43,856 nt of DNA from a virus, in IMG/VR virus record IMGVR_UViG_3300037540_000072, positions 1-43,856 of that record. One strand, 5' to 3'. Below, piece after piece: positions 2,979 to 40,380 of the stretch (position 1 is the first letter of the stretch; every line of letters starts with the position of its first letter). Position numbers and translations under genes: made by a program. Below the pieces are notes generated by a model. It was not told the DNA's origin and ran no database searches. It worked only from the letters and a program-made list of their open reading frames with translations.

Positions 2979-2994
2979 TAACACCTTTGGCTGG

Positions 2995-3744: not shown

Positions 3745-3832
3745 ATTTTTCCGTTCTATGTAGTTTTGTGCTTCCTTGTGGTGAGTTAGCTGATCACCAA
3801 CCTTCGCCGTTGTATTCAATATCTTGGCATTG

Positions 3833-3994: not shown

Positions 3995-4000
3995 AATTAC

Positions 4001-4138: not shown

Positions 4139-4142
4139 TATA

Positions 4143-4232: not shown

Positions 4233-4234
4233 AC
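4182..4234. repeat. 9-bp inverted repeat carrying two start codons
   Basis: GTATGCGAC at 4182-4190 and its reverse complement GTCGCATAC at 4226-4234 are separated by 35 nt. Each arm, read on its own strand, contains ATGCGA, the start of one of the two opposed micropeptide frames. In RNA from either strand the start codon would be inside the stem. Confidence 0.85.
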
Positions 4235-4273
4235 AACCTATTACCTATACTCTACCCTAATATTTCACGATAG
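4184..4273 (+). CDS. Candidate opposed membrane micropeptide, 29 aa (plus strand)
   Basis: On the opposite strand an ATG is preceded by AAGGAGG at ideal spacing, the best Shine-Dalgarno match in the region. The peptide has a basic start (MRLRKF) and a hydrophobic core (LLLLLIVAYNLLPILY), like a type I toxin or holin-like peptide. It overlaps almost the whole 29-aa minus-strand frame. No clear plus-strand promoter is visible, so expression is uncertain. Confidence 0.25.
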   Translation: MRLRKFPELLLLLIVAYNLLPILYPNISR

Positions 4274-4276
4274 CAA
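4249..4276 (-). promoter_or_regulatory. Weak sigma70-type promoter candidate
   Basis: Minus strand TTGCTA (4276-4271), 16-nt spacer, TAGAGT (4254-4249). Each hexamer matches 4 of 6 consensus bases. It would place a start site about 10 nt before the 29-aa micropeptide frame and would drive the small membrane genes and the replication genes. Intergenic space 4233-4340 holds nothing else that I can see. Confidence 0.3.
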
Positions 4277-4340
4277 GTAAAAACTCTAAATTTTAATAAA
4301 AAACTCGGGTATGTCTGCCGGGATTTGGCGAATAGGGTCA

Positions 4341-4703
4341 TTAAGCCAATCCTTTAAACCGCAACCACTTATCAATACTTGCTTGCGGTAGCTTATTGTA
4401 AGCTTCATCGCAACTACCACAAATAGCCGACACGAAAGCGTTGTAGTTGTCCTGTCCGCCAATCTTAGCAGCCTTATGCATGGCCTGAAAAGAGGCAATT
4501 TGGAACTTATCACGGTTTCTTCTCTTTACTGCTATAGCATTACGAGCCAGTCGATAGCCTCTTGTCGATGCGTTTTGGCATTCACGGCAGGAACTATGCA
4601 ATCCGTCACGGCTTTTTTTGCTGTTGCCGAAGTCAGACACGGGCGTGGAGTGATTGCCTAATTTGCAGTGTTTCTCGGTTATGTCTACTTTGCTTTTTTG
4701 CAT
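4341..4703 (-). CDS. Zinc-finger protein, 120 aa
   Basis: ATG at 4703 follows AAGGAACCAACC. The N-terminal region carries CKLGNH...VSDFGNSKKSRDGLHSSCRECQN, the phage zinc-ribbon pattern C-x-x-G-x-H ... S-x-C-x-x-C that often precedes HNH-like or DNA-binding modules. A second Cys pair (ICGSCDEAY) lies near residue 98. The C-terminal part is helical and charged. No full HNH catalytic set is visible, so I call it only a zinc-binding, probably DNA-binding, protein. Confidence 0.68.
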   Translation of the reverse strand: MQKSKVDITEKHCKLGNHSTPVSDFGNSKKSRDGLHSSCRECQNASTRGYRLARNAIAVKRRNRDKFQIASFQAMHKAAKIGGQDNYNAFVSAICGSCDEAYNKLPQASIDKWLRFKGLA

Positions 4704-4721
4704 GGTTGGTTCCTTAAAAGT

Positions 4722-4751
4722 CCCCCATCGACCCCGATAGCCGACAGGGGG
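4722..4751 (-). promoter_or_regulatory. Intercistronic GC hairpin upstream of a ribosome site
   Basis: CCCCC at 4722-4726 pairs with GGGGG at 4747-4751, with inner TCG/CGA or ATCG/CGAT pairing. On the minus strand the stem is followed by ACTTTTAAGGAACC and the ATG at 4703. One of several such hairpins placed between a stop codon and the next Shine-Dalgarno site. Confidence 0.55.
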
Positions 4752-4764
4752 TGAGGAGGGTGAT

Positions 4765-5019
4765 TTATCCTTGCTGTAACTTTCTGGGCTTCGGCTTAAT
4801 GTCGATAGTCGGCATCTTCTCAGTTCCTTCAAGGTATGGCATTGTAATCTTCATGCCACTGGCTTGTGCGATCTGAGCCGCAAGGATGCACTTCTGGGCG
4901 TTAATAATCTTTCCGAAGGTGTTATTGGCCTCGCAAGCCGTTTTAATGTCTATGCTACCGTCAAGCAGGCCTGCGACCATCTGTGATGCTACGTGTGTTA
5001 ATTCTGTCATGGTTTGCAT
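4765..5019 (-). CDS. Small conserved-type phage protein, 84 aa
   Basis: ATG follows AAAGGAGATTCAAAA. The pattern 'V...M..G..DIKTACEANNTFGKIINA.K..L' then 'MPYLEG' resembles a widespread family of short early phage proteins with two helices and an IPFL-like segment, of unknown function. The first 13 nt overlap the end of the 175-aa Lys-rich gene. It lies next to zinc-finger genes and the recombination block. Confidence 0.65.
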   Translation of the reverse strand: MQTMTELTHVASQMVAGLLDGSIDIKTACEANNTFGKIINAQKCILAAQIAQASGMKITMPYLEGTEKMPTIDIKPKPRKLQQG

Positions 5020-5534
5020 TTTTGAATCTCCTTTATTGTTCGCTCTAATATTATTTGCTGACGTTTAAACTCAAGTAAGTCACATGGCACATCTCTAGCC
5101 CTCAGCACGGGGTGGGTTTTTACTATTCGTTGTTTTACATAGCTATCAGAGATATTGTCATATTGTTTCTTTTTTGTTCTTTTATTTGTGTCTGAAACTT
5201 TTGATTTGTTTTTGTTCCGCCAAGACTTAACCTGTTTATTGATGCCTTTCCTATTGGCTGCGTCATATATTTTCCTGTACTCCTTGGTCTTGTCTTTCGT
5301 GTTGGCTCGGTATTCCTTGTAATATTTTTCGTTTTTACGGTAGAACTCTTTGTTGTAGACTCGCACTTTTTCTGTGTTTGCTAGGTAATAGCCTTTAGCG
5401 TACTCCAGGGATTCATCTCTATGGGCGTCATAGTGTGATTTTCTATATGTCTTTATTTTCGCCTTGTTGCTTTCCCTGTACCTCTTGTTACATGCTCGCC
5501 TCCGCTCTTTTCTTTCCGCTTCCGTCAAAGGCAT
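5007..5534 (-). CDS. Highly basic Lys/Tyr-repeat protein, 175 aa
   Basis: About 40 percent of residues are Lys, Arg or Tyr. The first 120 residues contain a loose repeat (K.YR..N..K.K.YRK..Y....) of the kind that links zinc modules in phage HNH-like proteins, here without Cys pairs. The C-terminal SDSYVKQRIV ... EFKRQQIILERTIKE helix resembles the tail of those proteins. A degenerate relative of HNH-associated DNA-binding proteins is my inference; it is surely nucleic-acid binding by charge. Confidence 0.6.
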   Translation of the reverse strand: MPLTEAERKERRRACNKRYRESNKAKIKTYRKSHYDAHRDESLEYAKGYYLANTEKVRVYNKEFYRKNEKYYKEYRANTKDKTKEYRKIYDAANRKGINKQVKSWRNKNKSKVSDTNKRTKKKQYDNISDSYVKQRIVKTHPVLRARDVPCDLLEFKRQQIILERTIKEIQKCKP

Positions 5535-11997: not shown

Positions 11998-14214
11998 TTA
12001 AAATCCACGTCCACCAAAGCCTCGTTGTTGCTTAACAGTAGGCATTGATCTTGCTGTTTTGGCGGCTTTTGCTGCCCTAATAAGCTTTGCTCGTCTCTTA
12101 TCTTCAATTTTATCCATCTCTCTTAGTAGTTTGATTGCTCTTACTGCGTTTGGCACTGCTCCTGATGCACCTGGTTTCAATTTCAGTCCAGCAGTCAGGA
12201 ACTTAATTCCTTTCGGATTTGTCGCTAATCTTGCAAAAGCCATCGGCCCTAATGTTAGAGCTGCACCTGCCGTAAATCCTACAAAGTCCCCTTCTTTCCC
12301 GCTGTTATACATTAGGGGGATTCCCGCGATCTGTGCTCCGCGAGAGAACAGCGACGCTCCTGTTGGTGGAGATTTCCCAGCCTGTTCAAATAGTTGCTGG
12401 ACTTTTTTCACATTTCCTCTTACATCACCTTCCGGGAACATTTCCTTCAGTCCCTTTGCTCCGAGTTTGTTGAATACCCGATTAAAGACCTTTGGCTTTG
12501 CCACCCCTTCTTTTGTTGCTTGGTCCACAGCGTCAGCAAGCCATGCCTGTCTGAGTTGGTTCCATAGGGCTTTTCCTTTTGCACTTGGTTTGCCGGCTAT
12601 TGGCTTAACGAGCGATTCCCTTAGCAATCGTATTGCTTTTGGGTTATTTGCCGGAAATACCTCTTTTACGACACTTGAAGGATTCTTAAGTATTCGTTTG
12701 GCGAGAGTTTCTGAAAACGTTGTTTTTAAGCCCTGCTGTGCGGATTTATACAGAGAATTTGTATTCCTCAGTAGATTAAGAGCCTCTGGGCTCAACCCCT
12801 GTGTGGCTGCGGGGTTAAATATAGCATCGTCTGTTATTCCCGCAAGCTGCTTAATGATTCCTTGGCTCTGATCTACATCCCTAGCCATTTTCCGAGCATC
12901 TCTCAAGAAGGATGACCTTAGGGTTCGCATGTCAGCAAAGGAGAGTTTATCTTTCATTTCGGCAATAGAAGTCAGCTTGCTTTTTCCGGCCGGAGACAAA
13001 AACTGCCCATTCAGGCGCGTATCCGTTGCTAAATTTTTCTTCGCGAACCTTTTAAGGGTCCCCGTACTTACAGTAGGCGATAGCTTTATGGGCTGTAGTT
13101 CACGTGCGGCTTGAAATTTCCCCTTAGCCCCCCTGATTGCTGGGCCTCCCTTTTTTACTTGGCGGAATCCTATTTGTCTTCCACTTTGTGCTAATTCGTC
13201 AACCTGTTTATATAACGGGTCTATCAGGTCATCAAGGATCTTGAACACTCTGCCATCTGGTCTACTTATGCCTTGAGCGAAGACTTCCCCGATCTCTTCG
13301 GGGGTTTGGCGAGCGATCCCCTCTCCTATTGACTCCAGTATATTGTCAGCGTAAGCTAAAACAGCCTTGCCTTGTTTCTTTTCAAACTCTAAAAATGGCT
13401 TTTTTGCTCCAAATGAACCTCGACTAAACGCCTCGCTAACCCGTAAAGAGAATCTGCTATCGAGTTCTGTAGGAGAAAATGAACCGCCAACTTTTGCAAA
13501 GTCGTCTACCAGCGAAGCTGCTTCTGGGATTGTCTTTTTAATGAAAGGAGAAAACGCAAGCTTGCCTCCTCTTACGATACCCCGACCAGCCAATTCTGTG
13601 CCTGCCTCTACAGCAAATGCTTTAAGAGCCTCACGGCGCCCAATAAGCCGCTTCTCTTCTATTGCTGTCTGTGCCGCCTCTCCTGCTACGCCGCCTACTC
13701 CTGCCCCTCCTGCTGATGCGAGAGTAGCTAATATGATCGCGTCGTCTATTGGGCCGGGGATAAACCTGCCTGCGACGGCTGTTCCAGCAACGGCTCCACC
13801 GATTCCGCCCGCTGTACGTCCTACTCTGGGCCTGTCGAGTATGTTCTGGGTTTTCAAGGTCGCGTCTATTTGTTCCGGGGATAATCCTTGATCTATCAAC
13901 GACTGGAATGCTTGGCGTCTTGCTGTTTCGTCCCTGAATTTAGGATTGACTAACCGCGGGGCGCCGCCTATTCCCGTTCCGCCAAAACCAAACGTTGTCC
14001 CCGCTGCTCTGCCGGTGAACTTCGGAGGCAATGGGCCTTCGGACGGCAACTTACCTTTCATTGCTTCAAATAAGGGGACAAACGTTTCCTGTTGGGACGG
14101 CTGCATTTGCTGTAGCTGGTCAAGCTCTGATTGTTCCGCTTGCGACAATCCCTGCGCAGGTTGCATCCCTTGAAGTTGGGTTAATTCCGCTTGTTCTTCG
14201 GCTGTGAGTCCCAT
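11998..14214 (-). CDS. Large internal virion / ejection-type protein, 738 aa
   Basis: Starts with Gln/Leu repeats (EEQAELTQLQGMQPAQ, SQAEQSELDQLQQMQP). Then come Gly/Ala-rich hydrophobic stretches (VGRTAGGIGGAVAGTAVAG, ATLASAGGAGVGGVAGEAA) and long amphipathic helices. A basic tail ends it. This composition, its size, and its place after the tail nozzle fit podovirus ejection proteins (P22 gp16/gp20 or T7 gp15/gp16 type), which leave the capsid and form a channel. No lytic transglycosylase motif is seen. The stop overlaps nothing; the start touches the 370-aa gene. Confidence 0.65.
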   Translation of the reverse strand: MGLTAEEQAELTQLQGMQPAQGLSQAEQSELDQLQQMQPSQQETFVPLFEAMKGKLPSEGPLPPKFTGRAAGTTFGFGGTGIGGAPRLVNPKFRDETARRQAFQSLIDQGLSPEQIDATLKTQNILDRPRVGRTAGGIGGAVAGTAVAGRFIPGPIDDAIILATLASAGGAGVGGVAGEAAQTAIEEKRLIGRREALKAFAVEAGTELAGRGIVRGGKLAFSPFIKKTIPEAASLVDDFAKVGGSFSPTELDSRFSLRVSEAFSRGSFGAKKPFLEFEKKQGKAVLAYADNILESIGEGIARQTPEEIGEVFAQGISRPDGRVFKILDDLIDPLYKQVDELAQSGRQIGFRQVKKGGPAIRGAKGKFQAARELQPIKLSPTVSTGTLKRFAKKNLATDTRLNGQFLSPAGKSKLTSIAEMKDKLSFADMRTLRSSFLRDARKMARDVDQSQGIIKQLAGITDDAIFNPAATQGLSPEALNLLRNTNSLYKSAQQGLKTTFSETLAKRILKNPSSVVKEVFPANNPKAIRLLRESLVKPIAGKPSAKGKALWNQLRQAWLADAVDQATKEGVAKPKVFNRVFNKLGAKGLKEMFPEGDVRGNVKKVQQLFEQAGKSPPTGASLFSRGAQIAGIPLMYNSGKEGDFVGFTAGAALTLGPMAFARLATNPKGIKFLTAGLKLKPGASGAVPNAVRAIKLLREMDKIEDKRRAKLIRAAKAAKTARSMPTVKQQRGFGGRGF

Positions 14215-16505: not shown

Positions 16506-18601
16506 TTCACCCTCCCAGCAGGTTTAAACCACCATCGCATTGCGTGTATCACTGGCCTGTTGCTCGATGCGTTGTTTGTGATATTTGCGCTATGGAAACC
16601 CGCAGTGGCCCCGGAATACGCTGCATACCAAGCCTTTTCGTCCGACCCTTCTACTGCAGATGTCGTTATGGTCGTTGTGGAGTATTTTGTAGTGTCTGTA
16701 CCTAAGAATAATTCTACATCAAAACTAACGTCTGGATTTACAGTGCATAGAAATTCAACCTTCCAAAGCTTTGCTTTTTGGCCTTGATTATGGTAGGGAT
16801 TGAACCTCCCCGTTGTAGCGTTAAATTCAATATCTGTGCCAGCGTCACTTCCGCCTGTATTTAACTGAAACAATACGCCTGCATGGTTGCCGATAATAGT
16901 AAACGGAAAACCCGACACTGTGTTTAGTTGATTCCACGAGAAATCTATATCTTCCCATGCTTCATCTAAATCCCACGCCACATCGCTCTCTAGTGACGAA
17001 TATCCCATAGAGTGAATATCGTGAGAATGAACGGCCCAGTTCCTGTCTTCATAATTGAGTATCAAAGCCCTGTCTGGGTATTGGTTTCCGTCGCCATTGG
17101 TAGCTGATTCTGGCCTGGCGTAAGTGAAATATTTATGCCTCTCTTCTTCTAAGACCGCGCTTACGCTGTACGGAGCAGAGTCGGGATTCCACTCAAGGAC
17201 TACATCTGGTATTTTCTGGTCAATGTGACTTACTGAATTTCCGTTGTTTGCAAGTATTTTTGTTGGACCTATCGCTGTTTGAAGGTTATTCAATGTTGTC
17301 AATGACATTTGTGCGATAGTTCCGTCCTGTGCAGACACCCTCTGCCACTCAAACGGGTCCGCCGAGTCGCCTGTCCAGACAAACCTCCACACGCTGTTTT
17401 CAAACCACACATACAAATCGTCACCCAAGAAGTCAGCAGATACAATATAATCCTCTGTTGGTGCGTCCTTGGAATTAGCCGTAGGCCATGACTGAGGGTC
17501 TTTTACGGTCGACCACCTTGCCCGTTGCTTGTAATCAGTCCCACTTTCGTTTGTGCTGAATATTACAATTCTTTCCTTGACTACAAATATAAGCAAGGCA
17601 CTATTAACATCGTTTTGACCTGCTCTATTGCCGTCCGTTCCGATATCAATGAATAGCTGAGTGAGGTTTGTTCCGTCGTATATCTCGATAGGATCGTTGT
17701 TGTTGGTAATAAATGTCTTTGAAGCTCCACCAAGAGTCCAGTTCTCTGTCCAGAAAGAGTCGGTATTATCTCCGGTCCAGTTACTATCGTTACCTGCTGA
17801 AACTGCATCGCCTACAATATTAGCAGGCGTCCCGCTTTCAAATAACTGGCCTGTTCCATTGAATGTGCCTGTCACTGTCCCTCGCTGGAATATGATCGTC
17901 CCTACTGCGTCTGCTCCGCCGAAAGTACCATAATCCACTGTAATGACATCAACTGTCCCTGTGGCTCCACTGACGGCCTGCTCTATTGTATCCCCGTTAG
18001 CGGGAGTATATCCAGACTGAGCGGCGAAATTAAAGCGTATACGGTGCTTGGAGGCGTCTATGAATTGCTCCTGATTAACCTGGGAAGTCGTCCCCATCGT
18101 TTCCGCTACATAAGCACTTTCAATATCAAAGGTTGTTCCCGCCTTTGCTTCTACTCGGTAAGTGCCGTCATAATTGGTTGTATTACTTATCGTGACAATA
18201 TCGTCTGCTGCAAGTCCATGTCCTGTAGCTACTGTGAATCGAACGACATTAGGTGCACCACCGACATCAGCAACTGACAAAAGGATTACGCCTGAGACCT
18301 TGCTTGATACAAAAGTATTCATTCTCTCTTTGTCGAATACTATAAGCTCTTGCGTATTTCCTGATAGGTGGTTAAATACGCCCATGACGGGATTAGTCTG
18401 CAAGGTTGGGTTTTGCGTTGCAGTATCTACCTTGACTATCTGGCCTAGCTTAGATCGGCCATACCTCTTTTCAAGCTTACCCCTTTTCAGGTGGCAGTTA
18501 AAAAGTTCTGCGAATCCGTCAGGCGGTAAAAGCCATCTGTCGCGGCGTGTTACCTTGCCTTCTGTCAAGTCTGATATTAGATATGGTGTAAATTGTGCCA
18601 T
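16502..18601 (-). CDS. Tail nozzle / DNA-stabilisation protein (gp10/gp12-like)
   Basis: A 699-aa beta-rich protein. The opening (LTEGKVTRRDRWLLPPDGFAELFNCHLKRGKLEKRYGR) is typical of podovirus proteins that start by defining which samples or blades follow. Repeated strands with NHLSGNTQELIVFDKERMN, DDLYVWFENSVWRFVW and ILANNGNSVSHI fit the beta-propeller of P22 gp10 and T7 gp12. It forms the distal tail tube and plugs DNA after packaging. Overlaps: 1 nt with the fibre gene before it, 4 nt with the 92-aa gene after it. Confidence 0.75.
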   Translation of the reverse strand: MAQFTPYLISDLTEGKVTRRDRWLLPPDGFAELFNCHLKRGKLEKRYGRSKLGQIVKVDTATQNPTLQTNPVMGVFNHLSGNTQELIVFDKERMNTFVSSKVSGVILLSVADVGGAPNVVRFTVATGHGLAADDIVTISNTTNYDGTYRVEAKAGTTFDIESAYVAETMGTTSQVNQEQFIDASKHRIRFNFAAQSGYTPANGDTIEQAVSGATGTVDVITVDYGTFGGADAVGTIIFQRGTVTGTFNGTGQLFESGTPANIVGDAVSAGNDSNWTGDNTDSFWTENWTLGGASKTFITNNNDPIEIYDGTNLTQLFIDIGTDGNRAGQNDVNSALLIFVVKERIVIFSTNESGTDYKQRARWSTVKDPQSWPTANSKDAPTEDYIVSADFLGDDLYVWFENSVWRFVWTGDSADPFEWQRVSAQDGTIAQMSLTTLNNLQTAIGPTKILANNGNSVSHIDQKIPDVVLEWNPDSAPYSVSAVLEEERHKYFTYARPESATNGDGNQYPDRALILNYEDRNWAVHSHDIHSMGYSSLESDVAWDLDEAWEDIDFSWNQLNTVSGFPFTIIGNHAGVLFQLNTGGSDAGTDIEFNATTGRFNPYHNQGQKAKLWKVEFLCTVNPDVSFDVELFLGTDTTKYSTTTITTSAVEGSDEKAWYAAYSGATAGFHSANITNNASSNRPVIHAMRWWFKPAGRVK

Positions 18602-19602
18602 TATATTAGATAGTCTATTTTAATTCTGTAAGCGTTTCCTTGTAAGTTTGTTCCTACGGGGTCGAAAACTACATTCGTACCGTTGTAAATGACAATTATT
18701 TCGATAGCCCCGCTATTTGCACCTTGTCTAAATTCCTGAATCTGAAAACCCGAGTAAACTGTATCCTCATACCCATACGCTGTTACACTTAATATCTTAG
18801 TGATGCCATCGGCTATTCCGTGAGCTACAGTTGTCGAGGAGTCCGCGTCCAGCGTCCCTGTAAGGTACTTTGTGTAGACTTTTCGTTTTGTGCCATCAAC
18901 ATCGCAGTTATTGAAACCCCCTGTTGCATCGTGCATCAAATCGCCATCGCCATCCAAAATAGCAAACTTCTTAATTGAGTCAGAGCTTGCGACTGTATTA
19001 TCAGCCGCACCCGTCATTGTGTCACTATTGAGAAAACCGCCGTTAGTTGTCTCAAAAGTCGTAGGGTCGATGTTTCCGGTAACGTCCAACGTTCCTGCTA
19101 CCAGTGTGTTGCCGCTTGCTGCCGTCACTGTGAATTTATTCGTATTGACCGCAAAGTCACCTGTAACTCCTAGTGTACTACCGAACACACGTCCTGACGC
19201 CAGTAACGTAGCTATAACCTCCGTTGATACCGGTGTCCATGTTGGAGTTGTGGCAGTGAGAATATTACACTGATTATCTGGGGTTGAGTCGCTGTCAACC
19301 CACAACGAGCCTAAGTCCGTTGATAAGAAACCTGACCCGTCAATTCTTGTAGTCGGAGAGGCGGTTTGAAAGTAACACCTTGCAGAACCTTGCGTGTGAT
19401 CGCCCGTTTGGGTTCCCGCTGCTGTGCCTGTAAATATATGCTCATTATCCATCGCGGTCTGTATCTGAGACCAGTTTGCGAGTATTTCAGGGTTTGACGC
19501 CCTCAGCGATGTACTTGCAGCTGGTTTATCTTTATCGAAAGCTCCAAAAAAACAGGGGAGCCATGCTATTAAAATAACAAATGCTATTGTTTTCTTGTTC
19601 AT
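18601..19602 (-). CDS. Fibre-like virion protein with signal peptide, 333 aa
   Basis: Starts MNKKTIAFVILIAWLPCFFGAF, a clear Lys-start, hydrophobic core and small-residue cut site, so a Sec signal peptide. The mature part begins with PAASTSLRASNPEILANWSQIQTAM, which resembles tail-fibre N termini. It continues with a repeated beta structure (GRVFGSTLGVTGDFAVNTNKFTVTAASGNTLVAGTLDVTGNI) and ends with GTLDADSSTTVAHGIADGITKILSVTAYGYE. A tail fibre by content, but exported by its start. Confidence 0.7.
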   Translation of the reverse strand: MNKKTIAFVILIAWLPCFFGAFDKDKPAASTSLRASNPEILANWSQIQTAMDNEHIFTGTAAGTQTGDHTQGSARCYFQTASPTTRIDGSGFLSTDLGSLWVDSDSTPDNQCNILTATTPTWTPVSTEVIATLLASGRVFGSTLGVTGDFAVNTNKFTVTAASGNTLVAGTLDVTGNIDPTTFETTNGGFLNSDTMTGAADNTVASSDSIKKFAILDGDGDLMHDATGGFNNCDVDGTKRKVYTKYLTGTLDADSSTTVAHGIADGITKILSVTAYGYEDTVYSGFQIQEFRQGANSGAIEIIVIYNGTNVVFDPVGTNLQGNAYRIKIDYLI

Positions 19603-19616
19603 GGTATTTTCCCTTT

Positions 19617-20798
19617 TTATTTACTTAACATTTCTCTTGAACCAACTGTGTCTATTTCGTAATGCACATCAAAATCCAGTATAGCAACACCACCTGCATA
19701 GTTATCGCCTGATGCTGCAACACGTTTAATCCTGCAAAGCAACACTGATGATATCGTGTGGCCTGTGCCATCTATGCCCGCAGCTGTAATGTCACCTGCT
19801 TGGTGCATGTTGTCTGTGTTTACACCTGTTGATATGTCAATAGTTGACAGTGTTGTGTTTACAGCAAAGTCCTCCCCAATATCTACCCATGTATATTCAT
19901 ATTCAATACCAAAATTATCAGCAGGGCTTACATCTGAGGTACACATAAAATGGATATGTGGATATATGGTTGTGCCTTCTTTCCATTTATGAGGCATCTG
20001 GATTGTTATTAAAGATTCATCACCATCACTGAACACATAAGCATAAACCCCCTGACTGCTTGAACCATCATCAAATAGTTTTGTCAGTGCTGGGTTATTT
20101 GCTACACCATTCCAGTTATTGGGGCCAAGTGGTGTTACATAATCGTCCCAGACAGTTGCATCACCCTCCATCAAAAGTGTTTCTTCCTTAAGTTGTAACT
20201 CACCTACTGCCGTCAGTTCCATCTTTTTAGAATATGCACCTATGAAATGAGTGTCACCAACTTCAGTCCACCATGTAAATGGCTTGTTGCCATTGATAAT
20301 GAAGGCCGTACTACCATGCCCTGTGCTGTAATATGCAACCGAACTAGTCTCTACTACAGCATGATTTGTGCCAGCAATGCCCATTGATGCTCTGTGGCCG
20401 GAATCATTTATTACTTCTAATACACTCACACCTGTAGCTAGAGAATTTGTAACATCCAAAGAAAGCAGGCCTGCATTCCCCTGAAACAGGTAGCTCATGC
20501 CCAAACCGGGGTCACCAAACAAAACTCTGGGCGCGCCTGTAGTAGAATCGAAACTGATGAAGTCGCCGCTGGTTGCAAAAACCCGAAACGCATCATTATT
20601 GTTGTCGGCTATACGCCAGAACTTAGAACCGTCCGACATGTCGAGAGTGGCAGACGTCCCCTCAGGGACTCCCCACCATGCGCCGGAACCCTTGAGTTTC
20701 CAAGGCTCATCAAGTACATTGCTAGGATTGTATCGCCCTCTGTCCGCACCAAACACAACCGCTGTCAGCATTAGAAATATGAAAATGAGTTTTTTCAT
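19617..20798 (-). CDS. Fibre/adhesin-like protein with signal peptide, 393 aa
   Basis: MKKLIFIFLMLTAVVFGAD is a textbook signal peptide with a VFGAD cut region. The body is beta-rich with Gly/Thr/Asp; the C-terminal half (PHKWKEGTTIYPHIHFMCTSDVSPADNFGIEYEYTWVD) is like phage receptor-binding or decoration domains. No enzyme motif. The downstream gap to the 333-aa gene is 14 nt. Confidence 0.68.
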   Translation of the reverse strand: MKKLIFIFLMLTAVVFGADRGRYNPSNVLDEPWKLKGSGAWWGVPEGTSATLDMSDGSKFWRIADNNNDAFRVFATSGDFISFDSTTGAPRVLFGDPGLGMSYLFQGNAGLLSLDVTNSLATGVSVLEVINDSGHRASMGIAGTNHAVVETSSVAYYSTGHGSTAFIINGNKPFTWWTEVGDTHFIGAYSKKMELTAVGELQLKEETLLMEGDATVWDDYVTPLGPNNWNGVANNPALTKLFDDGSSSQGVYAYVFSDGDESLITIQMPHKWKEGTTIYPHIHFMCTSDVSPADNFGIEYEYTWVDIGEDFAVNTTLSTIDISTGVNTDNMHQAGDITAAGIDGTGHTISSVLLCRIKRVAASGDNYAGGVAILDFDVHYEIDTVGSREMLSK

Positions 20799-20799
20799 T

Positions 20800-21450
20800 T
20801 TAGAATCCTCGTGCTAATAGCTTTGAGTCTGCGTCCACGGTTGTAGGTACTATTACAATTACATCCGCACCCATAACGTCAATCCAAGCCTCTGCCACAC
20901 GGTTCCCTGTCGGACTTGAAGATGACCACGATTTTGCCCAGTCTGAGGAGGTAACGACTACTGTGTCCGCCATTTCGTAAGTCGCGGTAACAGATGCTTG
21001 CGTCCCTACAACCCACGCCAGCTTACCTGCATAAGCAAGTTCACAGTCTGCGGTTGTTGAGTCCCTATCTCTTTTACCGTCACCAAGAGTACCGAGGTAT
21101 ATTTCAACAACGTAATCCCCATCGTTTGTAATACCCTGCGCCCTGAATCTCACAGCATTCCAGCCTTTTGGGATGTCATAGATAGAAATCTCATCATCGC
21201 CCGACGCACCTGTCCCTTGTGCTGTTTTCACGGTTTGGTAGGTCCGCTCGGTCACCGCCAAATCTGTTGGCTCTGTGCCCGTACTCGATGTAGTGTCAAT
21301 GACAGTCCATACAGAATGAGTGGTATGAACCGCACCTGGATCAACTCGCGTCCCGCCTTTGTCTATAGGCGCAACCCTTGTCAGATCAGCAGCAAAACAT
21401 AAGCCAACTATTACGAGTAGCGATACAATTATCAATAATTTCTTTTTCAT
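20800..21450 (-). CDS. Signal-peptide virion-module protein, 216 aa
   Basis: MKKKLLIIVSLLVIVGLCFAAD is a signal peptide with an FAAD cut site (a Cys at -4 could also make it lipoprotein-like, but the lipobox is poor). The mature part is a single beta-rich domain (GWNAVRFRAQGITNDGDYVVEIYLGT) with Thr/Ser/Asp. It sits between the adaptor and the fibres. Function unknown. Confidence 0.66.
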   Translation of the reverse strand: MKKKLLIIVSLLVIVGLCFAADLTRVAPIDKGGTRVDPGAVHTTHSVWTVIDTTSSTGTEPTDLAVTERTYQTVKTAQGTGASGDDEISIYDIPKGWNAVRFRAQGITNDGDYVVEIYLGTLGDGKRDRDSTTADCELAYAGKLAWVVGTQASVTATYEMADTVVVTSSDWAKSWSSSSPTGNRVAEAWIDVMGADVIVIVPTTVDADSKLLARGF

Positions 21451-21461
21451 AGGTCTGTTCC

Positions 21462-22502
21462 TTAAATACTTGCCTTAGGCACTCTTGTTACTTGTTTTTG
21501 GCGGTATGTTCTGCCGTTAATAGTATTAACTAATTGTTTGAATTTGGGAGCTATATCTTGCGCTCCGGGCGTGTCCTGTTCGCCTATCAAGAACGAGATT
21601 GCCGCTCCGTAAGCGATAGCCTCACCCCATGACGCACTTGTCGGGATACTTGCATCGGTGGTTAGTTCGTCCGGTTTCTTGAGATAAGGTGCTTTCAATT
21701 CCCTGTAATCGTCCGATTTCTTCTCGACATACAAGCTTTGATCGTAAAATAACACCCAACCCGGTATTCCACGGCTGCTATTCCATCCATCGGTATATGT
21801 CGCTGTGACGCCCGCTGCGCTTAATTCGGTCGTTCCGGGTACAAACGTCCCTGATGTGTTGATTGCGGTCACATACCCCATTGCTGCCTTCGTGGAGTCC
21901 TCATTAGGCAAGCCCTGTACTGCAAGGCCTACCGTGGCGTATCCTGTGGCATTATCGCTCGCTGCTTGGATAGAAACCGTCCCGTCTGTGTTGATTTCAA
22001 GCCTCCATGCTCCGTACTTGCTCTGAGGGATCGTGCTTCCCGATAGTTCTGTTTCTGTATCCGCTGCCTCTGGATAAGCATTCCCGCCGATGTTGTACTG
22101 GAAGGCATTGCCATTCTTTACCGCAGAGGCACTTGTCGTACCAATCGCAAGACCAGCTCCGGCGTCATTTATAACAAACGAACCTGTGAAATTGCCCGGA
22201 AACTCCTCGAAAAACAACTTATCGTCCTCAGTGAATATCTGAACAGCACCGTTGATCTTTATCGGCTCTTTCACAACCAAAACGGACTCGTCAAGTGTGT
22301 AAATACCTGTATCAGTAGCAGTCAAGGCCTGAGTAAGCCATGCCATAAAGTAGCTATCGTCAATATCAAGAGGAAACTGGTTACGATAGTAGTCGTTTAT
22401 TTCGTCATTGATATCGCTGTTACTGATCTGTCCTGTTGTAGGGCGACCCGTCAGGCTTCTATACTTTGCCCTGATCTCAGCTAATGTCCACGTTTTTGCC
22501 AT
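21462..22502 (-). CDS. Head-tail adaptor protein, 346 aa
   Basis: The N-terminal helices (WTLAEIRAKYRSLTGRPTTGQISNSDINDEINDYYRNQFPLD) and C-terminal ASWGEAIAYGAAISFLIGEQDTPGAQDIAPKFKQLVNTINGRTYRQK match the helical adaptor fold of podoviruses (P22 gp4 / T7 gp11 class). These bind the portal and hold the nozzle. The middle has an unusual Thr/Gly/Ala-rich insertion of about 150 residues. The start overlaps the 46-aa basic gene by 26 nt. Confidence 0.7.
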   Translation of the reverse strand: MAKTWTLAEIRAKYRSLTGRPTTGQISNSDINDEINDYYRNQFPLDIDDSYFMAWLTQALTATDTGIYTLDESVLVVKEPIKINGAVQIFTEDDKLFFEEFPGNFTGSFVINDAGAGLAIGTTSASAVKNGNAFQYNIGGNAYPEAADTETELSGSTIPQSKYGAWRLEINTDGTVSIQAASDNATGYATVGLAVQGLPNEDSTKAAMGYVTAINTSGTFVPGTTELSAAGVTATYTDGWNSSRGIPGWVLFYDQSLYVEKKSDDYRELKAPYLKKPDELTTDASIPTSASWGEAIAYGAAISFLIGEQDTPGAQDIAPKFKQLVNTINGRTYRQKQVTRVPKASI

Positions 22503-22617
22503 TTTTCTTGTCTTTCTTATCTTTAAGGAACTTACGCAAGGGCTTGCCAGCTTTCTTGGCCTCCTTTATGTCCTGTCGTAATCGATGATGCCCGTGTCCA
22601 GGTGGTCGTCTTCGCAT
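22477..22617 (-). CDS. Small basic protein, 46 aa
   Basis: ATG follows GAAAGGTCAACTT, 11 nt after the stop of the O-antigen ligase-like gene. The peptide is mostly Arg, Lys and His (RRRPPGHGHHRLRQDIKEAKKAGKPLRKFLK). It overlaps the adaptor start by 26 nt. A DNA-binding or chaperone-like peptide; no family. Confidence 0.58.
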   Translation of the reverse strand: MRRRPPGHGHHRLRQDIKEAKKAGKPLRKFLKDKKDKKNGKNVDIS

Positions 22618-22628
22618 AAGTTGACCTT

Positions 22629-24107
22629 TCAATTTCGATTGAGTTTCTTTAAATTTACTTTTGCATCTTCAAACTCGGGGCAAATCTCAATCGCTTTTGC
22701 GAAAAACATCGCCGATTTACCCCTGCGACCTTCTATTCCGTATGCTATCCCTGCTCCGTTTAGTGCGTAGATATTATACGGGTTTTGGAGCTGTGCTCTC
22801 TTTAGTAGCGGTATTGCTTCGTTATACCTCTTTAACTCAAAGTAGCTCATCCCTTCCCACCATGCCCACGGCAGACCGACATGCGTAAGAGAGGAAAACG
22901 GAGAGTCACCCTCGCATAAATTGATAGCAACGTCCGGCTTTAGGTTGCCTCTCATCTTTCTATTCCATGTTGCCGATCTGTATCTGAATCCGAACACTAC
23001 TATGCAAAAGATTACCACCGTAACCCATAGCTTAGGTTGCTTGTAGCTTTTCATCGGACATGCCAAGGCAATGAACGTCATAAGCATCAATGTCGCAAAC
23101 GGGCGCTCATGCAGAGCCGAAAAACACGCTATCACCATGCCACCGAGTAAGCCGATAGCAAGGTATTTGCTGGCGTGTTTCAGGGCATATAAGAACATCC
23201 CAATATAGAATACCACACCAATCCCAATCTCTGACGCTATCCAAACAAAGTTATTGTGTGGGTGTCTGAATATGATTCTTGTGAATAAATCTTTATAATA
23301 AAAGTCGTCTGCGTATTCAGGGAACATAATCCACCAATTACCTGCGCCAACTCCCATCGGGTTAGCTTCAATCATTCTCAATGAAGCCTGCCATTGACCG
23401 AGCCTTTGACCTAAAGTGACAGAAGATATAAACTTATCACTAAGGCACAAAACGCTTAGTATCGCAATACCCGTAACCAAGAAAGCCATCCTAAGGTTCT
23501 TATGATAGATGAATACCAATAAACCAAACATGCCAACTGCTAAGATGACAGACCGTGTATTCAACAAAAGGATATTCAGTATCATCAAGGGCATAATCAG
23601 CAAAGCCGGTCTCTTCCAGAATCCTGACGTTACTGCATAGTAACAGAATGGAATTACCATAAACTGAGCGCACGCCCAGTAATTCTTTTGGCACATAAGC
23701 CCTTTACAGATATGAAACGAACCAACTTTGCTATACTCCCACCAGAAGTAAACGGTAAAGATTACGCCCAGTAGGAGCATAGCCTTGGTCAGTGTTTTCT
23801 CATCAACTCGTAAGACGGATATATACGACACAGCGAGCAAGGCCCTGCATGACGAATACACCCACTCGGACTTATTGACAGCAAAGAAGCCTGACAACAA
23901 AACAAACCCAAGATACCCAAACGCGAAGATGTGTATTTTACCTAATCTGATTTCAGTAGATACCAGAACCATAGCCAGAACCATAGCACACCACATAAGA
24001 TGGCGCGTAGTCAGAGACTTGTCATAGGCATAGGGCGATAGGATTATACCGCACAAAGGAATACCTATAACTGGAATCCACTTTAAAATAGTTTTGCTAT
24101 TAACCAT
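22629..24107 (-). CDS. O-antigen ligase/polymerase (Wzy_C-type) membrane protein with TPR tail
   Basis: A 492-aa polytopic membrane protein with about ten or more hydrophobic helices. Hallmarks of the WaaL/Wzy_C family are visible: an LLNTRS element in one helix (about residue 184), then GQRLGQWQASLRMIEANPMGVGAGNWW and the catalytic-type FRHPHNNFVWIASEIG (about 280-294). The last 80 residues form TPR-like helices (GMSYFELKRYNEAIPLLKRAQ, GAGIAYGIEGRRGKSAMFFAKAIE). In bacteria these enzymes join or polymerise surface glycans. ATG 24107 follows AGGAGCAAT. In a phage it could change the host surface and block re-infection. Confidence 0.85.
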   Translation of the reverse strand: MVNSKTILKWIPVIGIPLCGIILSPYAYDKSLTTRHLMWCAMVLAMVLVSTEIRLGKIHIFAFGYLGFVLLSGFFAVNKSEWVYSSCRALLAVSYISVLRVDEKTLTKAMLLLGVIFTVYFWWEYSKVGSFHICKGLMCQKNYWACAQFMVIPFCYYAVTSGFWKRPALLIMPLMILNILLLNTRSVILAVGMFGLLVFIYHKNLRMAFLVTGIAILSVLCLSDKFISSVTLGQRLGQWQASLRMIEANPMGVGAGNWWIMFPEYADDFYYKDLFTRIIFRHPHNNFVWIASEIGIGVVFYIGMFLYALKHASKYLAIGLLGGMVIACFSALHERPFATLMLMTFIALACPMKSYKQPKLWVTVVIFCIVVFGFRYRSATWNRKMRGNLKPDVAINLCEGDSPFSSLTHVGLPWAWWEGMSYFELKRYNEAIPLLKRAQLQNPYNIYALNGAGIAYGIEGRRGKSAMFFAKAIEICPEFEDAKVNLKKLNRN

Positions 24108-24202
24108 ATTGCTCCTGTTATCCATGGAACAAAGACAGTGGCTATGCCGGTCAAGACCAGCACCAAACAGCCTATGTCTTCTTTTGTTATCGGATTAGCC
24201 AT
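24083..24202 (-). CDS. Small membrane peptide, 39 aa
   Basis: ATG follows AACAGGATAAT, directly after the beta-helix gene. One long hydrophobic segment (CLVLVLTGIATVFVPWITGAIWLIAKLF) follows a short polar start. It overlaps the start of the O-antigen ligase-like gene by 25 nt, so the two are probably coupled. It could be an accessory peptide of that enzyme or a holin-like peptide. Confidence 0.58.
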   Translation of the reverse strand: MANPITKEDIGCLVLVLTGIATVFVPWITGAIWLIAKLF

Positions 24203-24203
24203 A

Positions 24204-25274
24204 TTATCCTGTTGGTGTAGCTGTTACAGTAGCGCCGTTCGATTCAATAGTACCTGAGAACTCATCGCCGTCTGTGTCGGTCAGGAAGTTGTTAATGAAT
24301 ACCATATCGTCACCTGTACGCATCGCCAAGGCGGTCGTAAGGTCGGCAATAATACGGTTATCCATAATCAGCCCAGACGAATCATCGGCGAAAGATATAC
24401 CAGCAACAGCGTTAATCTCACCGTCTCCACTCATAGTACCGTTAAACAGCGTATTGCCCTTAATGACCACATTCTCAACAAACTGCCCGACAGTGCCTTT
24501 AATGCACCCTGCCGAATAGTCGCCTTGAATATGATTACCGATAATGTCAAGACCTGCCGTACTGGATACAACATGGATCGCCTGAGTAGCGCCTGCGCCA
24601 CCGAGCCTGAACGTACAGCCAAGAATCAACCCATTATCAACATTGTCCTTAACATTGATCGAGGTTAGAAACTCGTCTGTGCCGGCTGTTTCAGCCCATC
24701 CAAACTCGCATCCGACAACCTGGAAATCATCACCTGCATCTTCGATGTCAATAGCCGCCGTAGTAGTATCAGAACTTGCTCTAAACCGAATATTCTCAAT
24801 TCTAATATTGGCAGCACCGATAACACACTCAGCAGCTACGGAATCAAAATCAATGGTCGGCTTAAGAGAACCGTTTCCAATACCTATGATGGTTATGCCC
24901 GAAATATCAGCGTCTATACCATCGGCAGCAGAGAGTCCTTCATTGTGGCCCTGCATTACATAGATAACATCACCTCTATCAGCGGTGCACAAAGCAATCG
25001 CGTCATCAATGGTCGGTACAGCACTTGCGGGAGTTGTCCCTACCGAAGTAGAGGAACCGCCTGCGTTGCTGTCAACATAGAAGACCTTACCTGTGCCCAA
25101 ATTGCTTCCAGCGTTGGCAATATCGGTATTATGCTGAGTAAACTTACCTCTAAGGAGCTTAACCAAGTCTTCGTCAGGATGAACAGTAGTGAGATTGATG
25201 TCTTTTACTGGAATTGTCGCGTAACTTACCGCAACAAACATTAAAACTAAGGCTATAATGATCTTATTTCGCAT
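24204..25274 (-). CDS. Beta-helix fibre with signal peptide, 356 aa
   Basis: ATG 25274 follows AAGGGGCAAAAG. MRNKIIIALVLMFVAVSYATIP is a signal peptide with SYA cut site. The mature body opens with FYVDSNAGGSSTSVGTTPASAVPTIDDAI, the usual entry to right-handed parallel beta-helices. Repeated rungs follow (ISGITIIGIGN, ANIRIENIRF, DDFQVVGCEF, NGLILGCTF, AGLDIIGNHI, ENVVIKGNTL). Such folds bind or cut polysaccharide in tailspikes. No catalytic residues can be assigned. Confidence 0.8.
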   Translation of the reverse strand: MRNKIIIALVLMFVAVSYATIPVKDINLTTVHPDEDLVKLLRGKFTQHNTDIANAGSNLGTGKVFYVDSNAGGSSTSVGTTPASAVPTIDDAIALCTADRGDVIYVMQGHNEGLSAADGIDADISGITIIGIGNGSLKPTIDFDSVAAECVIGAANIRIENIRFRASSDTTTAAIDIEDAGDDFQVVGCEFGWAETAGTDEFLTSINVKDNVDNGLILGCTFRLGGAGATQAIHVVSSTAGLDIIGNHIQGDYSAGCIKGTVGQFVENVVIKGNTLFNGTMSGDGEINAVAGISFADDSSGLIMDNRIIADLTTALAMRTGDDMVFINNFLTDTDGDEFSGTIESNGATVTATPTG

Positions 25275-25518
25275 CTTTTGCCCCTTTCTCGGCTTCCTTG
25301 GCCGCTTTCTTTGCTTTAGCCGCCGCATCTTTTTTTGCTTTAGCCGCCGCTTTCTTTTCTGCTTTTTGCTCGTCAGTCAGAGGTGCTTTCTTCTTAGGTC
25401 CAGCCATCTGCTCGACTTTAGCCTCTATCAGATTTACATTGTCGATAATTTTATTTAATGCCTTTGCAATTTCGTCTGACGTATCGACTTCATCAGACCT
25501 TACGTGTTTAATTGCCAT
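25264..25518 (-). CDS. Lys/Ala-rich histone-tail-like protein, 84 aa
   Basis: The first 45 residues are a helical segment (SDEIAKALNKIIDNVNLIEAKVEQM). The rest is nearly all Ala and Lys (KKAAAKAKKDAAAKAKKAAKEAEK), like histone H1 C termini. It may be a virion DNA-condensing protein, or a trimerising coil with a basic tail. It overlaps the beta-helix gene by 11 nt. Confidence 0.62.
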   Translation of the reverse strand: MAIKHVRSDEVDTSDEIAKALNKIIDNVNLIEAKVEQMAGPKKKAPLTDEQKAEKKAAAKAKKDAAAKAKKAAKEAEKGAKDAK

Positions 25519-34401: not shown

Positions 34402-37275
34402 TTAGTTTCCTATCAAAGTATCAATATAAGCTGTTATGTCCGATGCAGTCATTACGCCGGTCATGTCAAGGTCGTAAATTGTACCGTTTAGTCCGTTTGC
34501 TGCGTCTTTATCGCCCCATCGGACCTTGATATCAGCAAGCCCAAATCCAACATGATCAGCATTTGCACTGGCAACTGTCCTGATTGTCCGACCATTTCCA
34601 ATACTCATTTTTAAAGTGTCCGCACCAGCTATCCCAAGTTGAATTGCAAAGATTAATGCTTGGCCTTTCTTGAACCATACTCCATTAACTTCACTAGGTG
34701 TAATTGACGCAGGATCCATTGTTGCCCCTGCATCGTCTGATGTGAACGCATTTGTTGTGTCCCATGTCCCTGTAATTGTTCCTGTAATTGTCGTAGGCGT
34801 AGTGGCTGTAACCGTTAATGTCGCATTTGAAACGGCTTGTGTTAGTACGTCACCTACAGCCGGTGCAGTTGTCATTATTGGAACTGTCAGCGTAAGAAGG
34901 GTAGCCGTAGTCAAAACCTCGTTCGTGCCAGCATCTACAACATTTAGGCTAAACGCCCTGTCTGCGGCTGTGGCAGATGAAGTGTAGTATAATTCCGCAT
35001 AAGCTGTTGCGCTAACTCTCCATGACCTGATGTAGTAGTTGCCGGGATTTGCATCATACCAAGACGACTGAGCAAATGGCGTGAAGCTGAATATGTGTGT
35101 TGCTTTTTCTGGCGTTTGCCAGTTTACGTCATATTTTGCCGCTGCCCGTGCCGTTCCGCCTACCTGCCATGAGGTCGATTGCTCCCCGTCTACTGATATT
35201 TGTACGTTATCAATGAGAATGTCGGTATTTGTACCAACGTCAACACCAGCACCAACTCTTATCCCCACAATATCGCCGTCAGACCCCACCGCTGCAATAG
35301 TCATGGGTTTTATATAAAGTGTTTTCCATTCACCTGGTCTTAGTGTTGCGTTTGTTATAGTTCCATTTGCTGTAGTTGCGTTGGTTGAAGCAGCTCCATC
35401 GTCTTTATTGAATCTAGCAGATATGGTTGTAGCCTTTGCTGTTGTAGGCAAACCAACCATGACTGAGCCTGATATTATTTCATTTTCTGCCGCCGCTATA
35501 CCATAGGCCACCCCATCTGGACTGGTGACATTTGAGACCGAATTTCCTGCTTTAGTGATCCTTACAGCATAAGTCCCGTTTGGTATTGATGGCACACCTG
35601 CTGTATCTGCTGTGACCTGTGCCACTGTACCATCAGAAAGTGCATAAGTAGCAAAACTTGCATCTTCAAATGAGGACTTTGCTGCAGTAGTAATCTGGTT
35701 GGCTATGGCCTGCTCGCAAGTAATACCCCGCTTTTTGGCTGATATTCCGCTTGGAGGCGTAATTGTTGTATGCCATACACGGTTAGCGGAGTCTGCATCC
35801 GCTGTCAACACACTGGCTAGTATCTTGCCATCGAAAGGGACTAGTGTTTGTGGACCAATAGACGCATCTGCCTGTACTCGATAGATGGCCGTCCAGTTCA
35901 CAAGGTCTGATGTTGCGTAAATAGCTACTGTCGAACCTGCAGCACTGGCAGTTAGATCATAAGTACCTGCGTAAATAATGCCATCAACTTGAGTCAATGT
36001 GAAGAAATACCCTCTCAGCCCTGTCCGGTCCTGGTCTTTGAATATGGAAGTTACTTCTCCACTAATAACATCCAGCAAGAATAAGCCTTCCAGCTTGTCT
36101 GATCCACAAAGCAGCTTTGTAGGATGTCCGATATCCAGCAAAGCAATTGGCTGTAGTACGCCCTCACCTGCTGTAAGTAGCGCAGCCCATGTAATTCCGT
36201 CATCGTCTGAATAATAAACATTGGATTTAGCATTATCACCAGCACATGCCACAATTCTTCCAGTTGCCAGATTTTGCCCCATGCCGTGCCAATGAGTGAT
36301 TACACCAGCTCCCGGGTCTAGTACCTCTGTAAAGGTTGCTCCTTTGTCGGTAGATCGGTAAATATAACGACCATTGGTCAGGTATTCACTGATAAGATTT
36401 GTACCAGCAGCGGTTAATAAATGGCTCCAAGCGGCTGTACGAGTCCCAGAAGTTAAGGCAAAGTCACCGCCCCCAAGCTGCGATTTTGCAAAGGCCATAG
36501 ATGTAGTGCCCTCAGTCCATGTGCCATACACAACCTTAGCTGGATTGGTTGACCCATCAGAAGCGATGCAGTTACCGAAATTGTCAGCTTTGAACAGATA
36601 CGCTATCGTGGTAAGGTCTGTGGCTTGTCCATGCTGAGCGTAAGGCAGGGAGTTATCTAGAGAGCTTCCTATTCGATTACTGCCGTTTCTACCCGCAAAC
36701 GTTCTCTCGGCTGCCAGCCCGGTCACTGTGTAGGCGGTATTCATCGGAAGATTGCCTATGAATGCAATATTGCTTTCGTCCATAGATGAGATCATGCCAG
36801 CTACCGGCATTTGCTTGTCTTTGATCTCATTGATCTCAAGCGATGTTTGTTCTGTACTGGCGATGCTGTTCCTGGAATAATTCCCCGTAAACACCCGATC
36901 GTCGGAAGTTATCAAAATTGCGTCAATGTCAGGTAAAACAGCAAATCCCATACCATTGCCAGACTTAGCCAGCGTCACCGTACCTTCAACCAATTCAAGC
37001 ACGTCCACGTAGTCAGTATCGAGCAAAACTGTCTCGGACATCGTGTATGTACCGGGCGAAAGCAACAATGATCTGCGGTTTGTTGCTGATAATGTGCCCA
37101 TCGGCCCGTCATTGCTAGCTGATTTGAGCCAATCATACTCGTTTTGGAGGTTGTTGCTAAGAGTTACTACATTTGCGTTGCTGTCTACTGTCACCCCGTC
37201 GTATCTGCCCCTACTGCCTAATGCCACGCTGCCTGACAAAACCAGTGCTAAAACTATCAAGATTGCTTTCTTCAT
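34402..37275 (-). CDS. Giant BNR-repeat adhesin with signal peptide, 957 aa
   Basis: Signal peptide MKKAILIVLALVLSGSVALGS. Residues about 60-250 are beta-rich. About 290-500 carry BNR/Asp-box elements (IYRSTDKGATFTEVL, YYSDDDGITWAALL, ...DLVNWTAIY), a sialidase-type beta-propeller. Then comes a galactose-binding-like beta sandwich (FEDASFATYALSDG), Ig-like Thr-rich repeats, and a last element DLDMTGVMTASDITAYIDTL that looks like one dockerin repeat. It begins the structural operon, before terminase, and probably binds host glycans. No sialidase Arg triad is evident. Confidence 0.72.
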   Translation of the reverse strand: MKKAILIVLALVLSGSVALGSRGRYDGVTVDSNANVVTLSNNLQNEYDWLKSASNDGPMGTLSATNRRSLLLSPGTYTMSETVLLDTDYVDVLELVEGTVTLAKSGNGMGFAVLPDIDAILITSDDRVFTGNYSRNSIASTEQTSLEINEIKDKQMPVAGMISSMDESNIAFIGNLPMNTAYTVTGLAAERTFAGRNGSNRIGSSLDNSLPYAQHGQATDLTTIAYLFKADNFGNCIASDGSTNPAKVVYGTWTEGTTSMAFAKSQLGGGDFALTSGTRTAAWSHLLTAAGTNLISEYLTNGRYIYRSTDKGATFTEVLDPGAGVITHWHGMGQNLATGRIVACAGDNAKSNVYYSDDDGITWAALLTAGEGVLQPIALLDIGHPTKLLCGSDKLEGLFLLDVISGEVTSIFKDQDRTGLRGYFFTLTQVDGIIYAGTYDLTASAAGSTVAIYATSDLVNWTAIYRVQADASIGPQTLVPFDGKILASVLTADADSANRVWHTTITPPSGISAKKRGITCEQAIANQITTAAKSSFEDASFATYALSDGTVAQVTADTAGVPSIPNGTYAVRITKAGNSVSNVTSPDGVAYGIAAAENEIISGSVMVGLPTTAKATTISARFNKDDGAASTNATTANGTITNATLRPGEWKTLYIKPMTIAAVGSDGDIVGIRVGAGVDVGTNTDILIDNVQISVDGEQSTSWQVGGTARAAAKYDVNWQTPEKATHIFSFTPFAQSSWYDANPGNYYIRSWRVSATAYAELYYTSSATAADRAFSLNVVDAGTNEVLTTATLLTLTVPIMTTAPAVGDVLTQAVSNATLTVTATTPTTITGTITGTWDTTNAFTSDDAGATMDPASITPSEVNGVWFKKGQALIFAIQLGIAGADTLKMSIGNGRTIRTVASANADHVGFGLADIKVRWGDKDAANGLNGTIYDLDMTGVMTASDITAYIDTLIGN

Positions 37276-39349: not shown

Positions 39350-39610
39350 TTAGTTTCCTTTATATTTTTCCCATAAACCTTTTTCTTTTAATTCTCGCTC
39401 GCACCATTCATCCCACGGGTATTCCTCGCAGAATCCTCGCCTGTCAGCGTAGGCGGTACAACACTTATTTTCGTGGTCAAACACTGAGCAATCGTCTGGC
39501 TCGGGGTTGTTTTCGTCATAGTCGGAGTTGTCCCGCAAATCACCCCTGCCTTGACAACATAAGCCGCATCTTTGGCACTTATGAGGGGTTGTTCGTTTAA
39601 ATTCATTCAT
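39350..39610 (-). CDS. Cys-cluster protein (YkgJ-like), 86 aa
   Basis: The start has KCQRCGLCCQGRG (C-x-x-C-G-x-C-C), then DDCSVFDHENKCCTAYADRRGFCEEYPW, the order of the YkgJ zinc/iron-chelating family. It overlaps the radical SAM gene by ATGA. Perhaps it serves metal handling for that enzyme, but this is inference. Confidence 0.72.
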   Translation of the reverse strand: MNEFKRTTPHKCQRCGLCCQGRGDLRDNSDYDENNPEPDDCSVFDHENKCCTAYADRRGFCEEYPWDEWCERELKEKGLWEKYKGN

Positions 39611-40380
39611 TTCTTCACCCTGACCTTAGCCATTACGTCCCGAATAGACTCTTTCCACTTGATAAGCGGCTTACCATCAAGAACAGAGAATATCTGCTTG
39701 ACGACTGAATCCTGTATTGCTGCCTTTAGCGGGTCAACGTACGTGGACATTTCCGAATCGGTAACACCATCAAGGATTACCCGGCTGTTAAAGTGCCTCA
39801 GTTTGCCGATCCAGAAACTTTCGGTAACCCATTCCTTGCATGCTTCATAAGTGTACGCCGGGTGAGGATCCAAATACGGCTCACAGCTGATAGAAGTCTT
39901 GTACCCTGCCCGATAAGCGTATTTCAGACAAGACAATCTTTCCTCGAAGTTCGGTGCCCCTGGTTCCCAAAACTTTAAGATATCGCTGTTTGTCGATCCG
40001 ATGGTGAAACGGAACATGATTTGATCTTTGAACGCTTTGAATGTTTCGCATATTTTAGTGATACATTCCCAGTGAGGTTTGCTGACGATCAGCACGTTAT
40101 TATCAGCGTGAAGCAGTTTTGACAGGACAACCATGAAATCGTACAGGATGTCTGGGGTGATATCATGTGACGAGGGAATCATAATCGTACCCTGCTTCTT
40201 GCCTTGGCTGGCATTGACTACTTTTTTGTTTACCTTGGAAACTAGCCAGTCCTCCGGTGATATCTGCTTGAACCGGTCGACTAGCATATTTCTCGCATAG
40301 CAATATCTACAATTGTGAGAGCAACCCTTTGCCATGTTCATGGTTGTTTCTGCCCATTCTTTCGTACCTGATTTTCTCAT
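39607..40380 (-). CDS. Radical SAM protein (SPL/gp37-68-like), 257 aa
   Basis: Cys 20, 24 and 27 in AKGCSHNCRYCYAR form the C-x3-C-x2-C site for a 4Fe-4S cluster. The sequence then follows a TIM-barrel-like order with TIMIPSSHDITPD, NVLIVSKPH and FRFTIGSTN, and YKTSISCEPYLD near the C terminus. This resembles spore photoproduct lyase and phage Gp37/Gp68-type radical SAM proteins. Substrate unknown; nucleic acid is plausible because a DNA methyltransferase is next to it (3 nt apart). Confidence 0.82.
   Translation of the reverse strand: MRKSGTKEWAETTMNMAKGCSHNCRYCYARNMLVDRFKQISPEDWLVSKVNKKVVNASQGKKQGTIMIPSSHDITPDILYDFMVVLSKLLHADNNVLIVSKPHWECITKICETFKAFKDQIMFRFTIGSTNSDILKFWEPGAPNFEERLSCLKYAYRAGYKTSISCEPYLDPHPAYTYEACKEWVTESFWIGKLRHFNSRVILDGVTDSEMSTYVDPLKAAIQDSVVKQIFSVLDGKPLIKWKESIRDVMAKVRVKK

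Follow-up and report, generated by a model that had tools for sequence, protein, structure and literature searches.

What would a short-tailed phage do with a putative O-antigen ligase whose gene sits among its virion genes? The window, i.e., the whole stretch of DNA analysed here, is the 43,856-base virus record of an uncultivated short-tailed phage. As an exact 127-bp direct repeat is found at both of its ends (positions 1-127 and 43730-43856), the record was treated as full-length, and it looks like a complete phage genome. It encodes a portal of the P22 type (Pfam PF16510, 3e-48), a major head protein (phrog_1357, 2e-39) and a small terminase subunit (GP3_package match), together with RusA, ERF, YqaJ and an IstB/DnaC-like ATPase (Pfam/PHROG). 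No integrase or lysogeny module was found among the ORFs scanned against Pfam and/or PHROGs, i.e., all but a few small and some conserved virion ORFs, nor did the genome show a recognisable second component for seroconversion. A radical SAM protein (39607-40380; PF04055, 1.8e-8) adjoins a C-5 cytosine methylase-like gene.

The wzy-TPR gene and its neighbours

The gene of interest, referred to as wzy, lies on the minus strand like the virion gene run in which it sits. The region comprises the following features, in the order in which they are read:

24204-25328, minus strand: fibre/beta-helix-like gene upstream of wzy (weak PF13229; homologues in the relatives L002, L004, L046 and L049)
24083-24202, minus strand: putative 39-aa single-TM peptide ORF (sequence features)
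22629-24107, minus strand: wzy-TPR, an O-antigen-ligase-like GT-C membrane enzyme (Pfam Wzy_C, 7TPG match, AF2 and Foldseek, L046 orthologue)
23220-23588, minus strand: Wzy_C domain proper, the HMM-matched stretch, holding R185, R235 and H284 (Pfam HMM)
22656-22844, minus strand: C-terminal TPR-like tail, about residues 422-484, predicted to be periplasmic (Pfam, PDB profiles, model helices, helix parity with 13 TM)
22477-22617, minus strand: putative basic 46-aa ORF at the wzy-adaptor junction, overlapping the adaptor start (ATG 22617)
21462-22502, minus strand: putative gene for a head-tail adaptor, downstream of wzy (relatives have homologues that lie downstream of their fibre gene)

The ATG at 24107, which lies six codons into the ORF listed as 22629-24125, is preceded by a well-spaced AGGAG and is the likelier start of wzy; it yields a product of 492 aa, compared with 498 aa from the alternative ATG at 24125. 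An earlier note on this DNA had placed the gene within a phage virion module, between an adaptor and a beta-helix fibre, and this position is borne out. The names of the two neighbours are less firm. The beta-helix match of the fibre gene is weak (PF13229, E 0.0029, under the cut-off), and the adaptor, for which no convincing Pfam or PHROG match was obtained, is named by its position and by homology among relatives.

The 39-aa membrane peptide described in the same note does exist as an ORF: it starts one base past the fibre stop, is preceded by AGGA and shares 25 nt with the start of wzy. The peptide itself is only putative, and Pfam and PHROG searches gave no family match. Homology with a 37-aa membrane ORF that adjoins the L046 orthologue of wzy found no support, as the likeness did not exceed that expected by chance (611 of 5000 shuffles). 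A family search with a TTG-started version of the 46-aa ORF was likewise without a match.

Domains, active site and fold

Pfam reports Wzy_C (PF04932) in the product at 6.9e-12, with 45.8 bits against a curated cut-off of 31.7. Aligning 16 phage Wzy_C proteins gave a family profile that matched the solved O-antigen ligase WaaL (7TPG) at 2.3e-17; the same structure was also found with a two-sequence profile (3.7e-4). Counted along the profile alignment, Arg191, Arg265 and His313 of 7TPG correspond to R185, R235 and H284. In WaaL, these residues are responsible for binding the lipid diphosphate and for activation of the acceptor (PMC10920833). The TRS and HPHNNF elements pointed out previously are present at residues 184-186 and 282-287, respectively, numbered from ATG 24107. 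All 16 phage proteins share R235, G252 and G256, and none of these three residues was part of the pattern by which the proteins were searched, while the invariance of H284, N285, E293 and G295 is partly circular, as these residues belonged to it.

An AlphaFold (AF2) model built from the 16-protein alignment is of medium confidence (pLDDT 72.5, pTM 0.70). Its sole PDB match at E<=0.001 in Foldseek is again 7TPG (E 1.4e-5, prob 1.00, TM 0.45/0.54), and nothing in a fold library of viral proteins matched at the same threshold. Topology was assigned by hand from this model; the 13 TM helices would place R185, the large loop with R235 and H284, and the C-terminal tail all on the periplasmic side. 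Neither a missing Wzy_C match nor a predicted fold lacking the periplasmic His/Arg site, either of which the earlier note had named as refuting its proposal, was found. Judged from sequence and model, the protein is very probably a Wzy_C/WaaL-type enzyme of the GT-C_B O-antigen-ligase superfamily, as had been proposed. It shares with WaaL (GT121) the Wzy_C domain, the two Arg and the His in the same order and the GT-C_B fold as best PDB match, but identity in the fold alignment is only about 13%, and, unlike WaaL, it has a TPR-like tail and is phage-borne in a virion gene run.

That tail had been called TPR. TPR-like is the wording that stands: for residues 421-493, matches to solved TPR proteins reach about 2e-6 (TPR matches in the PDB overall range from about 1e-6 to 1e-9) and five helices close the C-terminus of the model, but the Pfam scores remain slightly under the cut-off (TPR_1, 25.8 vs 27.8 bits).

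Whether the enzyme would act as a ligase or as a polymerase can be approached through the His. According to a CAZy analysis, ligases carry His where polymerases of clan GT-C1 mostly carry Asp/Glu (PMC10920833). The product has His284 at the place of the Asp/Glu in the BP-Pol (GT-C1) polymerase signature, which favours ligase-type chemistry. This criterion is not decisive, since Wzy-beta of phage D3, an O-antigen polymerase, has a Wzy_C domain in which His300 is essential (PMC4815439).

Protein as the acceptor has to be weighed as well. The 16-protein profile also matches the solved oligosaccharyltransferase 9RMK (1.1e-8), and a simple heuristic assigns Sec-type signal-peptide-like N-termini to five late genes of the window (within 18601-21450, 24204-25328 and 34402-37275), two of the five being called from internal Met codons, compared with one such gene along 25 kb of phage D3. 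The products of such genes would encounter the enzyme once in the periplasm, so that a PglL/PilO-like protein O-oligosaccharyltransferase glycosylating phage-encoded exported proteins would be conceivable, and signal-peptide genes also flank the Wzy_C genes in the lineage L024-L026. We regard this reading as unlikely: the WaaL match is far stronger than that to 9RMK, Pfam reports neither PglL_A nor Wzy_C_2 in the wzy product at E<=0.1, relatives of the phage that do not have wzy carry similar signal-peptide-like exported proteins, and the contigs L028 and L039 have a wzy gene with zero signal-peptide matches.

Expression context and comparison with temperate phages

Promoter-like sites in the region number 5 (7.8 in shuffles) and terminator-like sites 3 (3.2 in shuffles), i.e., without excess, and the coding strand just upstream of wzy has no promoter-like site. 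The simplest reading of the sequence is that wzy would be read through from the late unit. Given the place of wzy among the virion genes, with which it is probably co-transcribed, its product would act late in infection. GC content and codon usage of wzy are unexceptional for the genome; a recent foreign insertion was rejected on account of this ordinary codon usage and of a syntenic orthologue.

Temperate phages are the obvious comparison, and the earlier note had referred to their serotype conversion. This part of it fits less well, since no integrase was found among the scanned ORFs. The functionally studied phage Wzy proteins that we found are all from temperate phages (PMC4815439, PMC9241936), and a temperate phage altering the O-antigen of its lysogen, as D3 or epsilon15 does, would be the classical explanation. 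Against it, the apparently full-length genome has no lysogeny module among its scanned ORFs, and wzy lies inside the virion unit, on the same strand and with no promoter signal of its own, whereas wzy-beta of D3 runs opposite to the neighbouring tail gene. Lysogenic conversion is thus, in our opinion, quite improbable here.

The individual systems resemble ours only in part. D3 encodes a Wzy_C-type protein with an essential His (PMC4815439), but is temperate, has an integrase and carries wzy-beta grouped with iap and oac. Neither BLAST nor hhalign revealed similarity between Wzy-beta and our protein, so that the analogy holds at the superfamily level only. The putative O-antigen ligase VG_p25 of phage VarioGold is likewise a phage Wzy_C membrane protein whose neighbours have TM segments or a signal peptide; VarioGold, however, is temperate, and the gene belongs to a moron-like cluster opposite in orientation to the late genes (PMC9658991). 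WzyPh1 of Acinetobacter is also phage-encoded and changes the surface polysaccharide, but it is a prophage-borne capsule polymerase, and the text of the paper mentions no Wzy_C motif (PMC9241936).

Phage Wzy_C proteins are already known from the temperate phages D3 and VarioGold, where the genes lie outside the virion operon. Among open PubMed Central papers, what is new is the TPR-like fusion, the place in a virion unit without detected lysogeny genes, the conservation of this place in a diverged phage and the recurrence of such genes. The gene had been called unusual, and we agree: besides its place, tblastn with the window protein gave no match in 50,697 phage records, nothing even at E<=10.

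The fibre/adaptor slot in related phages

In six relatives (L002/L003, L004, L005, L049, L052 with L053, and L054), the adaptor nearly abuts the fibre gene, with no Wzy_C protein between them. A seventh, L051, has other ORFs in this place, one of them matching Cpn10 (L051 5648-6058), so that the gap between fibre and adaptor behaves as a cargo slot. The late region of L051 also encodes a family-2 glycosyltransferase (12592-13923). In L046, the slot holds a full-length orthologue of wzy, followed by the adaptor; it shows 41% identity over its length including the TPR-like tail, reaches 64.4 bits for Wzy_C, and its ATG overlaps the stop codon of the fibre gene (TAATG). Present in L046 and absent from seven other relatives, wzy can be described as a maintained accessory cargo that is dispensable in general.

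An insertion hotspot that is empty in six relatives and differently filled in L051 could also harbour a passenger without any function for the phage. This explanation seems quite unlikely to us: the orthologues of two phages are full-length and have kept all catalytic residues at only 41% identity, where decay would be expected without selection, and Wzy_C genes recur in the virion modules of several unrelated lineages. The structural genes of the window are closer to L002 than to L046 (adaptor, 75% vs 40%; gp16502, 80% vs 72-73%). Both a loss of wzy in the L002 line and an exchange of the fibre-wzy block are possible.

Recurrence in other lineages

A motif search with the pattern H-x-H-N...E-x-G revealed 25 viral contigs with such genes; Pfam found Wzy_C in those tested, most of them exceeding the cut-off. 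L024, L025 and L026 have the Wzy_C gene and head, portal or tail genes on one stretch (phrog_371, phrog_1216), the head gene of L025 being named by its likeness to those of L024 and L026 and not by a PHROG match of its own. The Wzy_C gene also shares a stretch with such genes in L029 and L037 (phrog_1357, phrog_371) and in L028, L039 and L041 (phrog_334, phrog_156, phrog_376). Apart from the lineage of the window, at least three uncultivated lineages thus have Wzy_C genes within their virion modules. L031 and L033 were not counted separately because they have the same proteins as L029 and L025, respectively; L030, L043, L045, L047 and L036, which may be bacterial or prophage flank, stand outside this count.

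Two of the contigs show peculiarities. L029 has a tandem pair of Wzy_C-like genes (2986-5210) upstream of presumed scaffold and MCP genes, of which the first, with YAHN in place of HAHN, does not reach the Pfam cut-off. The Wzy_C gene of L035 (320-1578) is split over two overlapping frames, perhaps by a frameshift or a sequencing error.

Like the window protein, the members from L026, L037 and L039 gave no tblastn match in the 50,697 phage records, and single-protein pattern scans of viral and genome contigs for close relatives of wzy found none. A pseudo-alignment with a hand-typed family-like fragment served only to steer the pattern search and yielded one bacterial protein, L007. In the tree, the window protein and that of L046 pair at 100/100, apart from the other phage groups; its bacterial sample consists of one phylum of small genomes and is too narrow to place the origin of the gene or the host. 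An AU test marginally rejected a single phage clade (p 0.042). Independent acquisition of Wzy_C genes by the phage groups is suggested by these results, and no more than suggested because of the long branches. A still wider statement, namely that phages without lysogeny genes from several unrelated uncultivated lineages took O-antigen-ligase-type enzymes into their virion operons independently of one another for late surface remodelling, may be put forward tentatively, and we consider it possible but somewhat doubtful.

Proposed function

The wzy product would be an inner-membrane GT-C_B glycosyltransferase with its active site facing the periplasm. By homology, the two Arg would bind an undecaprenyl-PP-linked glycan by its lipid diphosphate, and the His would activate the acceptor. 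A lipid-linked glycan of the host would then probably be transferred or re-linked to an acceptor, the simplest candidates being lipid A-core and a growing O-chain, while the TPR-like tail may dock a partner or the acceptor in the periplasm. The surface glycan recognised by the phage's own fibre would thereby be changed, which would stop further adsorption (superinfection block) and/or keep progeny off the lysing cell and its debris. A surface change brought about by a phage Wzy_C enzyme has a precedent in Wzy-beta of D3 (PMC4815439).

The same chemistry could serve another end. If undecaprenyl-PP-linked glycans were diverted late, wall and O-antigen synthesis would be starved and lysis aided, the glycan product being unimportant. 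Both Arg of the undecaprenyl-PP site are conserved and late expression would fit, but such a hijacking of the carrier leaves the TPR-like tail and the absence of the gene from relatives unexplained, and we hold it to be very unlikely. Late remodelling of the host surface glycan, taken as a complete functional account, has in our estimate about an even chance of being correct.

The earlier suggestion that late surface remodelling might free the progeny appears reasonable from the gene's sequence and setting. Llp of phage T5, which blocks the receptor, has a comparable purpose. Phage Wzy and ligase enzymes have been described in lysogenic conversion, which benefits the prophage. If a ligase-type enzyme is co-expressed with virion genes, phages would also rebuild the host glycan during assembly, and such remodelling would be a testable route by which superinfection and the loss of progeny on debris may be avoided. 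As genes of this type recur in several lineages, the question is a general one and goes beyond one odd case.
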